Assembly: GCA_027618655.1 (NCBI GenBank)
Contig: JAQCEL010000010.1
Coordinates: 1-40,775, forward strand
Reading direction: 5' to 3'
Source: Pseudomonadota bacterium
GTDB lineage: Bacteria > Pseudomonadota > Gammaproteobacteria > Ga0077536
DNA length: 40,775 bases
Shown here: piece after piece, positions 6,308 through 11,641 of the stretch
Numbering within the stretch: position 1 is the stretch's first letter
How the letters are laid out: every line of letters begins with the position of its first letter
Made by a program: the position numbers and the translations under genes
The notes under the pieces: model-generated
What the model was told of the DNA's origin: nothing
Database searches by the model: none
What the model saw: the letters and a program-made list of their open reading frames with translations, nothing else

Positions 6308-8650
6308 ATGACAACTGTTGAATTACCTGCCGCCGCGCTGCGGCTACCAAGCTTCGACTTCGATGACGTACCCGTTACATCCGTGTTCGAACTCGGCAGC
6401 CACGAACGCGCGCGCGAAGCGATCGATCTAGGGCTCTCGACGCCTAGCGATCACTACAACATCTGCGTGTTGGGACCGGATCAAGCGGGCCGGATGACGG
6501 CGACGCGCGCCTACGTCGAACAGTGGTCCCAAGGACAGCCAGCGTAGCCGGACTGGATTTACTTGCAGGATTTTAGCGTGCCCGGTTCACCGCGACCGCT
6601 GGCCCTACCTGCCGGAACGGGCTGTCGGTTTCAACGCGCGATGCATGCGCTGATCCCAGTGATCGGCCGCGAACTTGCCGCCGTATTGGCGAGCGAAGAA
6701 TACTTGCAACAAGTGCGACAACTACGAACCCGCGACGAGGCTGATATTCGCGCACGTTCCGAACAGCTGGAGGCGCGTGCGCGCGAGATGGGTCTAGCAT
6801 TAGTACCAACACCGCAAGGTCCCGTAGTCGCGGCACGCGATGAGGCGGGTGAAGTGGTGACATTAGAGTCGCTGTCGCCCGAGGCGCGCGATCGCTTGAG
6901 CACAAGCAGTAGCGAAATCCGCGATTCCCTCGGGGAGATCCAGCGCAGTGCGCTGCGTTTTCAGGCGCAATTTGTCGAGTCCGTACAGGCGTTGGAGAAA
7001 ACTGTCGCGGCTCAATTGACCGGCGTCCTCATCGATACCGTTATTGCTGATTTTAGCGACCAGGGCGAGCTGGTGACCTGGCTCCAGGCAATGAAAGCGG
7101 ACGTCGTTGAGCATTTTTCACTGTTCGTGCGACTGTCCGAGGACGTCCCTGCTGCAGAAACTGGCGGTGCGATGAGCCGTTATTCGGTGAATCTACTGGT
7201 CGACCGTAGTCGCGATTCCGGACGGCCTGTCCTGATTGAGCAGAATCCTAGTTATGAGAATTTGTTCGGCAAAATCGAGTATCGCCAAACGCAGGGCGGC
7301 GGAATAGAAACTGATGTTTCGCTGATTCAAGCCGGGTCCTTGCATTTGTCGAACGGCGGCGTGCTGATCCTGCGGGCCGCCGATATTGCCGAGCAGCCAT
7401 TGCTATGGAGCTTTATCAAGGCCGCGTTACGCGACAGTGAGATCCGCATTGAAGAGTTCTACCGTGCGGGCAGCCCGCCGCTCGCGGGTGCGCCGAAACC
7501 GGTGCCGGTGCCTCTTAACCTCAAAGTTATTCTGATCGGACCACCGCGGGTGTACTACGCATTCTTCGCCCATGACGCGGAATTTTCGGCCGATTTTAAA
7601 ATTCGTGCACATATAGATCCTACTGTGGCAGCGACACCAGAAAACCTATCTCGTTATGCGTCAATTCTCACCGCGCACGCGCGCACGCTAAAGCGAGTGC
7701 TCAGTCCTGATGCGATGCGTCGATTGTTAAGTATGGCGGCACGCTGGGCGGAACACCGCGACCGACTCACGTCGTCATACGAGTTGTTGTGCAACCTCAT
7801 CGATGAAGCACAAACCGACGAAAGCGGCCAGGTAACGCACGACGCGATAGACGACGCCGTGCATGCGCGCCGGCGTCGCAATTCACAAATGGAGGACAAC
7901 GTGCACCGCGCGATCCGCGATAAGCTGACGATTATAGAAGTGCAAGGCACGACCATCGGCCAGATCAACGGACTCACGGTTCAACAACTGGGTGACTATT
8001 CGTTCGGTACGCCGGCGCGGATCACCGCGCGATCTTCTGTCGGTCGGCCTGGTGTGATCAGCATCGAGCGGCTCGTGGCGATGAGCGGCCCGATCCAACA
8101 AAAAGGTTCCATGGTGTTACAGGGGATCCTGGCACGCCGTTTTGCCCGCAACGCGCCGATGTCGTTTGATTGCAGCGTCACATTCGAGCAATTATATGGT
8201 GGTGTCGAAGGTGACAGCGCGTCCATGGCGGAGTACATCGCGATCGTTTCTGATCTCGCCGATACCCCAATACGCCAGGACATCGCGATCACGGGCTCGG
8301 TGAACCAACTCGGCGAGGCACAAGTGATTGGTGGTGTGCACCATAAAATCGAAGGGTTTTATCGCACGTGTCGCGAACAAGGTGAACTCACTGGCACACA
8401 AGGGGTGGTCATTCCTGCCCGGAACCGGGGACATCTTGTACTGCGCGATGAGATCGCGGACGCCGTCGAGGCGGGAACCTTCCATGTCTTCACGGTCGAC
8501 ACCGTCGATGAGGCGGTCGCCTTGTTCACTGGTATGGAGGTAGGTCTGGCCGCGAATGGCGACGTGCTTGCCCAAGGGGACACCGTCTATGGACGGGTCC
8601 TAACGACACTCCGGAAGTTTGACGAATTGCTCGCAGTGCGTCACTTGTAA
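6308..8650 (+). pseudogene. Lon-like AAA_32 protease gene with one in-frame TAG
   Basis: The frame is continuous from 6308 to 8650 except for TAG at 6545-6547. Before it are 79 codons resembling the family N-terminus (CVLGPDQAGRMTATRAYVEQW, a degenerate P-loop with Arg in place of Lys). After it the next codons read PDWIYLQDF, matching the PDWCYVHNF block of LonB/YcbZ-like proteins. So the stop replaces a single residue. The C-terminal Lon protease domain is intact: S637 in GDSASMAEY and K680 in GGVHHKIEGF. Their spacing of 43 equals that of the Lon Ser-Lys dyad. If read through, the product is about 780 residues, the family norm. A separate start such as TTG 6563 would give a protein lacking the P-loop. 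Nonsense mutation, sequence error and read-through are all possible. Confidence 0.82.
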
Positions 8651-9342: not shown

Positions 9343-9478
9343 TTAGTGTTATTCGCCTGTGCGGCAATGCCTGGCGAGAACTCTAGGCGCAAGCGTCGCT
9401 CGATTTGTCGTCCACGCTGTAAACCGACAAAGGCTCGTGGAGCGGTACAATACACCGACCTTATTGCGAGAACCTGCT

Positions 9479-10603
9479 ATGCAAAGCGACCAAAAAGCGA
9501 ATTTAAGAACCGCGTTTTACCACGACGAAAAGTGCTTATGGCATAGCACAGCTGGACTTTATTCGTTGATTTTGCCGGTTGGCGGTTGGGTACAGCCTCC
9601 GGGTGGCGCAGGTCTTGCGGAGTCTCCGGAATCGAAACGTAGAGTGGTGTCACTATTGCAAGTTTCGAGCTTGGCGAAACAGCTTGAGTTCGTGACGGCA
9701 CCGATGGCGTCGGAATCTGATCTGCTGAGAGTGCATCCGCAGTCGTATCTGGATAAATTCAAAGCCCTGTCTGATGCGGGTGGCGGCGAGCTGGGCATGT
9801 ACGCGCCGTTTGGGCCAGGTAGCTACGAAATTGCCAAGCTGTCAGCAGGTCTCGCTATCGATGCAGTGGATAGCGTATTCACGCGAAAGTTTAATAATGC
9901 CTATGTGATGTCGCGGCCACCGGGTCACCATTGCTTGCCTGATCAAGGTCTCGGGTTTTGTTTGCTAGCCAATATTGCGATTGCCGTTGAAGCCGCGAAA
10001 GCGAAACACGGCATCGAAAAAATAGCGGTGCTGGATTGGGATGTGCACCATGGCAATGGGACGCAAACGATTTTTTACGAACGTGACGACGTTCTGACAA
10101 TTTCTTTGCATCAGGAGGGTTGCTTCCCGCCGGGTTACAGCGGTGCCTCTGATCGCGGCGCCGGCAAAGGCGACGGGTACAACATCAATGTTCCGCTCCT
10201 ACCGGGCGGTGGACACGACGCGTATATGTACGCGATGCAGCGAATCGTCACGCCAGCAATCGAACGCTTCAAACCTGACTTAATTGTTGTCGCTTGTGGA
10301 CTAGACGCAAACTGTGTCGATCCGCTTGCGCGAATGTTGGCGCATTCCGGTACGTTTCATGAACTCGCGAAGCAGACGATGGCGCTCGCGGAGCGCTTCG
10401 CCGAAAGTCGCATCGTCATGGTGCACGAGGGGGGCTACGCGGAATCGGCCGTGCCATTTTGCGCGCACGGCGTACTTGAAGCGCTGTCTGGCGAAAAAAG
10501 CAATGTTGAAGATCCGACCCGCGAAATTTGCGAACTGTGGCAACCCAACGAACGCATGAGGGCATTTCAACGCCAGCTAATCGATGAGATGGCTGAAGCT
10601 TAA
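9479..10603 (+). CDS. Histone-deacetylase-like amidohydrolase (class II HDAC family)
   Basis: Zinc hydrolase of 374 residues from the ATG at 9479, near the 369 of the characterised bacterial HDAH. The active-site set is complete: H150-H151 in RPPGHH, zinc ligands D188 and H190 in DWDVHHGNGT, D276 in CGLDANCVDP, and the catalytic Y320 in EGGY. The family removes acyl groups from lysine side chains or polyamines. The natural substrate of most bacterial members is unknown, so deacetylation of polyamines or of protein lysines cannot be separated here. It stands alone on the + strand, between a glycosyltransferase relic and a convergent peroxiredoxin gene. The open frame extends upstream to 9359 but the extra part shows no family similarity. 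Confidence 0.88.
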   Translation: MQSDQKANLRTAFYHDEKCLWHSTAGLYSLILPVGGWVQPPGGAGLAESPESKRRVVSLLQVSSLAKQLEFVTAPMASESDLLRVHPQSYLDKFKALSDAGGGELGMYAPFGPGSYEIAKLSAGLAIDAVDSVFTRKFNNAYVMSRPPGHHCLPDQGLGFCLLANIAIAVEAAKAKHGIEKIAVLDWDVHHGNGTQTIFYERDDVLTISLHQEGCFPPGYSGASDRGAGKGDGYNINVPLLPGGGHDAYMYAMQRIVTPAIERFKPDLIVVACGLDANCVDPLARMLAHSGTFHELAKQTMALAERFAESRIVMVHEGGYAESAVPFCAHGVLEALSGEKSNVEDPTREICELWQPNERMRAFQRQLIDEMAEA

Positions 10604-10822: not shown

Positions 10823-11473
10823 TCAGCTTGCCAGTTTCTTCAGTTCGGCAAGCGTGTCGCTAGGCTCTGGACGCGCTGTGTAATCAGGGTCGACGTCAGT
10901 CGCATGGACAATGCCGTCGCTACTAACTACGATCCGACCTGGCATCGGCAATGTCCAACTGTCATCTCCGTTATTGTTCGGCAAATCGATGCCAAATCCG
11001 CGGTAGATGTCGCCTAGTTGACCTTCCACTTTAAAGCGCAAGCCGAGTTTGTGCGCGTAGTTATTACCGGGGTCGCTGAGAATATCGAACCCTAGCTCGT
11101 GCGACTTGACCATCTTCGCATTGAACTCGGCGACTTGCGGGCTTAGCGCAACCAAAGTTGCGCTTTGCGCTTCGATGTCTGACAGAATTTCTTGCAAAGC
11201 GTACAGCTCTGCATTGCAGTAGGGTCACCAATGTCCGCGAAAAATCGTTAATACCACCGCCCCGCGCGACAATAATATTTTGGAACTAATCGCTACGCCG
11301 TTCTGATTATTCAGGGTAAAAGGCGGCAATTTGTCGCCAACTTTGATCACACCATCCATGATGCCAGATTTGCGCAACGCATCCGTCGCGGCAAGCATCA
11401 CCTTCAAGGAGTCTGGCGGGATTTTTTTTGCTGCACCTTCTTTGATCGCGTTCAACTTAGTCTGCAAGGACAT
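10823..11473 (-). CDS. Peroxiredoxin-like (AhpC/TSA fold) candidate selenoprotein, in-frame TGA as Sec83
   Basis: One continuous leftward frame of 216 residues is interrupted only by TGA at 11227-11225. The flanking residues read LTIFRGHW-(TGA)-PYCNAELYALQ. In relatives this block is RGGWCPYCN, so the TGA sits exactly at the first Cys of the CxxC redox motif and C86 is the second. Downstream the family blocks are intact: LSDPGNNYAHKLGL, GIDLPNNNGDDSWTLPMP and the DVDPDYTARPEP tail. An 8-bp stem-loop begins 11 bases after the TGA (listed separately), as expected for a bacterial SECIS. The start ATG at 11473 has GGAGG eight bases upstream. Known family role: thiol peroxidase or thiol-disulfide oxidoreductase. 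The alternative is a nonsense mutation or sequence error; selenocysteine is an inference until the genome's sel genes are checked. Confidence 0.72.
11193..11213 (-). promoter_or_regulatory. Candidate bacterial SECIS stem-loop
   Basis: Eleven bases after the in-frame TGA the transcript can fold UGCAGAGC with GCUUUGCA (8 bp, one G-U pair) around the 5-base loop UGUAC. The loop starts 19 bases after the TGA and has G at its second position. Known bacterial SECIS elements have a short stem within the coding region just downstream of UGA, a small loop with an early G, and a stop-to-loop distance in this range. The folding is seen in the sequence; the SelB-binding role is inferred. Confidence 0.55.
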
Positions 11474-11641
11474 ACTTAAAACCTCCGTTATTTAGCTGTC
11501 GTATTCTGTGCCATTACGAGCAACGTCCGCCGGTCGGTTATTTAACCTTTGTAATCAACAGTAATGCACCGGCGATCGGCCCATTCAGTTGAATTAAATT
11601 ATACAAAACGGACATTGCCCCTGTCGTTGCCTAATAACGCC

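Follow-up and report, generated by a model that had tools for sequence, protein, structure and literature searches.

Selenocysteine (Sec) is delivered to the ribosome at UGA as Sec-tRNA-Sec by SelB with GTP, bound to a hairpin adjacent to the codon. Proteins that carry Sec in a UxxC motif within a peroxiredoxin-like fold were described as 'Prx-like' selenoproteins from the Sargasso Sea (22 sequences; PMC1088965) and as 'Prx-like 1', pfam00578, in the GOS survey (225 sequences; PMC2398784), and they recur in reviews (PMC9312934, PMC13188914). Elsewhere the UxxC family of pfam00578 is named thiol:disulfide oxidoreductase (PMC1794560, PMC13188914). Figure 2 of PMC13188914 gives the constraints on a bacterial SECIS element as a loop of 3-9 nt with G within its first two positions, an upper stem of 4-16 bp, a distance of 16-37 nt from the UGA and a minimum free energy (MFE) of -7.5 or below.

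Here we analyse a stretch of 40,775 nucleotides (hereafter the window; contig JAQCEL010000010.1, assembly GCA_027618655.1) from a member of the Pseudomonadota, whose draft genome comprises 4.36 Mb in 327 contigs and is 94.5% complete, and in which a selenocysteine-containing peroxiredoxin had been predicted. The reading frame with its TGA site, the hairpin and how it is conserved, the genes for Sec insertion, and the linkage of the selenoprotein gene to them in relatives are all directly observed. We conclude that the TGA at 11227-11225 is almost certainly read as Sec, which would give a full-length, 216-residue selenoprotein of the AhpC/TSA fold, its UxxC motif most likely cycling through a selenenylsulfide.

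Reading frame and conservation of the internal TGA

The coding frame lies on the minus strand at 10823-11473, beginning with an ATG at 11473, 8 nt 5' of which is a probable ribosome-binding site (GGAGG, 11482-11486, minus strand, judged from the sequence), and closing with a terminal TGA at 10825-10823. Its translation (MSLQTK...IFRGHW*PYCNAEL...KKLAS*) meets one internal stop, the TGA at 11227-11225 within RGHW*PYC, and all the coordinates originally given for a single frame running across this codon hold. With the TGA read as Sec, the product comprises 216 aa, with which homologues align over residues 1-215. The predicted Sec (U83, codon 83) takes the first position of a UxxC motif, of which the second redox residue, Cys86 (TGC, 11218-11216), is the sole Cys of the protein and its only thiol residue besides Sec83.

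Pfam assigns the protein to AhpC-TSA (PF00578, 1.5e-20, 73.8 bits against a cut-off of 26) and Redoxin (PF08534, 2e-15) and to no other family, and no NCBIfam model scored above its cut-off; relatives by sequence in the PDB are BCP/PrxQ thiol peroxidases and ResA-type oxidoreductases. In an AlphaFold2 model built from 29 aligned relatives (mean pLDDT 96.3, pTM 0.92), residue 83 ends a loop immediately ahead of helix 84-95, where the active site of this fold usually lies, and the N-terminus forms a helical extension of about 40 residues. The best Foldseek matches are BcpB, Bcp1, Bcp4 and PrxQ, with AhpE slightly lower. The protein is probably cytosolic.

Of 36 genomes examined for the window's order, 23 (the window genome included) contain a homologue at E < 1e-55, representing 25 copies, all of which have one internal TGA, at the same codon where this was read; leaving aside the window protein itself, they are 54-72% identical to it. 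The same TGA occurs in the named MAG contigs L012, L013 and L014, the last being the same DNA as order genome G379 and so not independent. L014 (CAMAXW010000016.1) is titled a Klebsiella pneumoniae MAG, a species label that is almost certainly wrong given its identity with G379, a relative of the window genome within the order. One genome, G314, holds a second copy (L087, G314:C87:90900-93500) that keeps the TGA and the hairpin but whose frame runs for just 66 codons beyond the TGA, perhaps a duplicate in decay.

In the distant homologues whose motif was read, at about 34-44% identity, the codon corresponding to the TGA is TGC or TGT. The original prediction placed the stop where relatives have the first Cys of the motif, which is true of these distant homologues, all below about 45% identity, but not of the closest relatives, which share the TGA (RGHW*PYC). 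A tree that also includes Cys homologues groups the 24 TGA genes in one clade (support 100/100), which fits a single exchange of Cys and Sec at the origin of the clade, in a direction that we infer; the protein alignment omits the row for L070, a locus with shorter flanks.

The predicted SECIS element

Folding, conservation across 24 genes and the published constraints together identify a predicted bacterial SECIS element at 11213-11193 on the minus strand. The 5' arm (UGCAGAGC, 11213-11206) and the 3' arm (GCUUUGCA, 11200-11193) pair in an 8-bp stem that encloses the apical loop UGUAC (11205-11201), with G at its second position; the spacer from the UGA to the stem is 11 nt and from the UGA to the loop 19 nt, so that every coordinate and spacing first reported for this hairpin is confirmed. 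Folded alone, it has an MFE of -11.0 kcal/mol, and its 5-nt loop, 8 bp, G at position 2, 19-nt distance and energy all lie within the constraints cited above. Fold energy by itself was rejected as proof of a SECIS element, the z-score against shuffles shifting from -2.37 in a 45-nt stretch to 0.10 in a 71-nt stretch. The judgement that this arrangement is hard to explain by chance is upheld by the comparative evidence, but not by the fold alone, which is only modestly unusual and whose z-score depends on the stretch chosen.

Within the hairpin, the codons GAG (11209-11207), CTG (11206-11204) and GCT (11200-11198) show no synonymous change in the codon alignment, being invariant in 24/24 TGA genes, whereas the same three columns in 31 Cys homologues contain mixed synonymous codons. 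No other column among the 107 testable shows full synonymous identity across the TGA genes, which serves as a control for their relatedness. Each of the seven inner positions of the stem forms a standard pair in every one of the 24 sequences (alignment A1), where slid controls have 26-58% of cells paired; the outermost position is unpaired in 10 of the 24 genes. Changes that preserve pairing are found among the TGA genes (C-G to U-G to U-A, G-U to A-U, and G-C to G-U), and covariation of the stem is not significant beyond chance, with 252 of 500 shuffles reaching the observed percentage of pairs. The signal of the hairpin is conservation rather than covariation, and it is the conservation of synonymous codons that carries the argument. 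An Rfam scan of the hairpin gave no match, as expected because the SECIS element differs between genes; among viral contigs the hairpin DNA pattern matched none, and a protein search found one remote relative.

Selenocysteine machinery and alternative readings of the TGA

The search for sel genes that the original prediction called for located selA, selB, selC and selD in the window genome. Three of them stand side by side on contig C161, namely selA (L010:9525-10952; TIGR00474, 588.8 bits), selB (L010:7600-9594; TIGR00475, 434.8 bits) and the tRNA-Sec gene selC with anticodon UCA (L010:7440-7535), while selD is on contig C324 (300.5 bits against a cut-off of 125). A second Rfam match resembling tRNA-Sec (C105, 48.3 bits) is a tRNA-Ser according to ARAGORN. 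No 16S rRNA gene turned up in this assembly. Across the 23 gene-bearing genomes, selB exceeds the cut-off in 20 and is in pieces in G377 and G395; G376, which is 86% complete in 550 contigs, gave no selB match above cut-off. Upstream of selA, two genomes encode a conserved protein of 354-356 aa with conserved Cys residues (L010:11769-12839 and L091:8720-9784, both on the minus strand), which adjoins selA in L091 and is separated from it by one methyltransferase-like gene in L010; the L010 copy had no match in Pfam or NCBIfam.

Sequencing error, pseudogene formation and general reassignment of TGA are excluded or very unlikely as explanations of the internal stop. One-base errors do occur in fragmented drafts such as this one, and the TGA might on that account be a miscalled TGC or TGT, or else a nonsense mutation in a pseudogene. 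Against this, homologues in a further 22 genomes of the order carry a TGA, which falls on the same codon in every case that was read, and so do contigs named independently. Conservation extends through the downstream half as far as its last residues, and the synonymous sites of the hairpin are frozen; because TGA and hairpin codons alike are conserved across the order, we regard this explanation as already refuted and extremely improbable. The original prediction had named two findings that would overturn it, a genome without selB or selC and reads with TGC or TGT. As far as these can be judged, neither holds: both genes were found, and an assembly error would not account for the same TGA in more than 20 other genomes. 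A code in which UGA specifies another amino acid genome-wide, such as Trp or Cys, can likewise leave the frame open, yet its probability here is negligible; TGA terminates 11 among the window's 25 long open frames, the normal code leaves selA, selB and selD open, and the TGA stands at a Cys column. Reassignment is already refuted by the use of TGA as an ordinary stop in the window together with the presence of a tRNA-Sec(UCA).

Real termination at the UGA would produce an N-terminal protein of 82 aa and a C-terminal half started separately, for example at TTG 11197, and mechanical ORF listing does break the frame into 82 and 124 aa; some termination at Sec codons is, moreover, normal. However, neither half would possess a complete active site, since one ends at W82 and the other loses P84-Y85-C86, the Cys homologues are one continuous protein, and the hairpin codons are conserved only together with the TGA, all of which makes separate products very unlikely.

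The selenoprotein reading, in contrast, is supported by the sel genes, by the TGA in homologues across the order and by hairpin codons that are frozen in TGA genes only. Sec insertion and redox chemistry, as deduced from sequence, would proceed as follows. The ribosome would pause at UGA 11227-11225, where SelB carrying Sec-tRNA-Sec would bind the adjacent hairpin (11213-11193) and put selenocysteine at position 83, giving a product of 216 residues with the active site U83-P-Y-C86 at the N-terminus of the active-site helix. A cycle through a U83-C86 selenenylsulfide is most likely, in which peroxides or protein disulfides would be reduced at the expense of cellular thiols; since there is no Cys besides Cys86, reduction would have to come from an external thiol (thioredoxin, glutathione or other).

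Two chemistries are compatible with Sec insertion: the protein may be a peroxidase, with Cys86 as peroxidatic and Sec83 as resolving residue, or a thioredoxin-like thiol:disulfide oxidoreductase with Sec as the first residue of its motif. The HMMER alignment to BCP/PrxQ, which puts residue 83 on the Ser/Thr of (T/S)xxC and Cys86 on the peroxidatic Cys, argues for the former, as do the best fold matches (BcpB, Bcp1/4, PrxQ and AhpE). Thioredoxin-like enzymes with CxxC or UxxC motifs use the N-terminal residue as nucleophile, and this precedent, the naming in the literature and the additional ResA-type matches argue for the latter. We consider the peroxidase a substantial, if not the favoured, possibility. 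The label 'peroxiredoxin' in the original prediction is apt as a statement of family resemblance rather than of activity; aligned with PrxQ/BCP, Sec83 occupies the Ser/Thr position and Cys86 the peroxidatic one.

Genomic context, related candidates and described families

In the closest relative, G400 (L091), the order of genes is selA, selB, a beta-lactamase-like gene, tRNA-Sec and the Prx-like selenoprotein gene, which is adjoined by a large frame on the opposite strand that reads as an Ndh-SelD-type fusion (a name taken from reading its sequence). Likewise, tRNA-Sec is directly upstream of the selenoprotein gene on the same strand in G382 (L092), G373 (L093) and G383 (L094). The selenoprotein gene thus lies directly 3' of tRNA-Sec in the selA-selB-selC cluster at L091:3173-4055, L092:6502-7364, L093:2841-3646 and L094:3334-4195; it is located away from the tRNA-Sec cluster in the window's own genome and in the majority of the other relatives inspected. 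A frame of similar length occurs in L093 and L094 where L091 has the putative fusion. In the window itself, a histone-deacetylase-family protein (9359-10603, plus strand; PF00850, 2.4e-81) is encoded convergently with the selenoprotein gene, and a LonB-like ATP-dependent protease at 6563-8650 (plus strand; AAA_32, 1.1e-36).

Position beside tRNA-Sec in relatives is the sole unusual point of the gene, and the accessible text of the literature on UxxC Prx-like selenoproteins contains no mention that we found of adjacency to selC. Because several relatives have the gene directly 3' of tRNA-Sec, and one of them also has a selD-like frame as its neighbour, the selenoprotein might conceivably belong to the core selenium handling of the lineage, for instance by sensing how much Sec is available or as a Sec-dependent reductase that provides SelD with reduced selenium, instead of acting as a general antioxidant; we think this unlikely. 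The linkage to the Sec machinery does make the role of the gene testable.

A scan of the genome for W-TGA-P-(Y/F)-C codons returned five matches, while the reversed pattern gave one; three of the five, besides the window gene, encode AhpC/TSA proteins (PF00578, 4e-19 to 5e-23). The three candidate Prx-like selenoproteins are a membrane-anchored protein on contig C26 of the window genome, G000 (L030/L095; FFRGYWUPYC), and a protein on C248 (L088; FYRGHWUPFC), both with a clear hairpin and a G-containing loop, and a likely exported protein on C297 (L031/L099; RSADWUPFC), which has a signal-like N-terminus and a weaker hairpin. The remaining match, W-TGA-P-Y-C on C78, is probably due to chance, with no more than 18 codons ahead of it and no frame that resembles AhpC/TSA. 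With four candidates in the window genome, the lineage appears to be rich in peroxiredoxin-like selenoproteins. Standard gene callers split or truncate the window gene, and in this way a conserved enzyme whose catalytic residue is UGA-encoded can vanish from annotation across an order known mostly from drafts.

A search of literature text for 'WUPYC' gave no match. PrxQ/BCP thiol peroxidases (PDB 5epf, 2cx3/4gqf) share the fold with a weak sequence match (5epf, Foldseek E 2e-12, TM-score 0.88 by target length), but have (T/S)xxC with Cys only, whereas UxxC and a helical extension at the N-terminus mark the window protein. The selenocysteine peroxiredoxin of the Eubacterium acidaminophilum type (TxxU) resembles it in combining the AhpC/TSA fold with Sec in the active-site motif; there, however, Sec is at the peroxidatic position, whereas Sec of the window protein aligns with T/S and is followed by Cys (UxxC), which sets it outside the TxxU type. 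An AhpC/TSA selenoprotein of an Olavius algarvensis symbiont (cd02970 / AhpC-TSA_2) reportedly has the motif UxxS, with Sec first and Ser second. That type is also a peroxiredoxin-like family with Sec at the first position, but its second motif residue is Ser where the window protein has Cys, and the latter matches PF00578 and PF08534 only in Pfam, so that it falls outside the UxxS type too.

The family whose definitions the window gene fits is the Prx-like thiol:disulfide oxidoreductase selenoprotein ('Prx-like' of Zhang et al. 2005; GOS 'Prx-like 1'; representative WP_010940744.1), which shares with the window protein pfam00578 and Sec as the first residue of UxxC. This family also has a SECIS element directly after the UGA and many Cys homologues (PMC1088965, PMC2398784, PMC13188914), as does the window gene. 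Assignment by the published definitions (PF00578 together with UxxC) is well supported on present sequence grounds, and we see no difference that would define a new family. The kind is already known, UxxC Prx-like selenoproteins having been on lists since at least 2005, and the window gene adds a solid member to a selenoprotein family known from DNA surveys.
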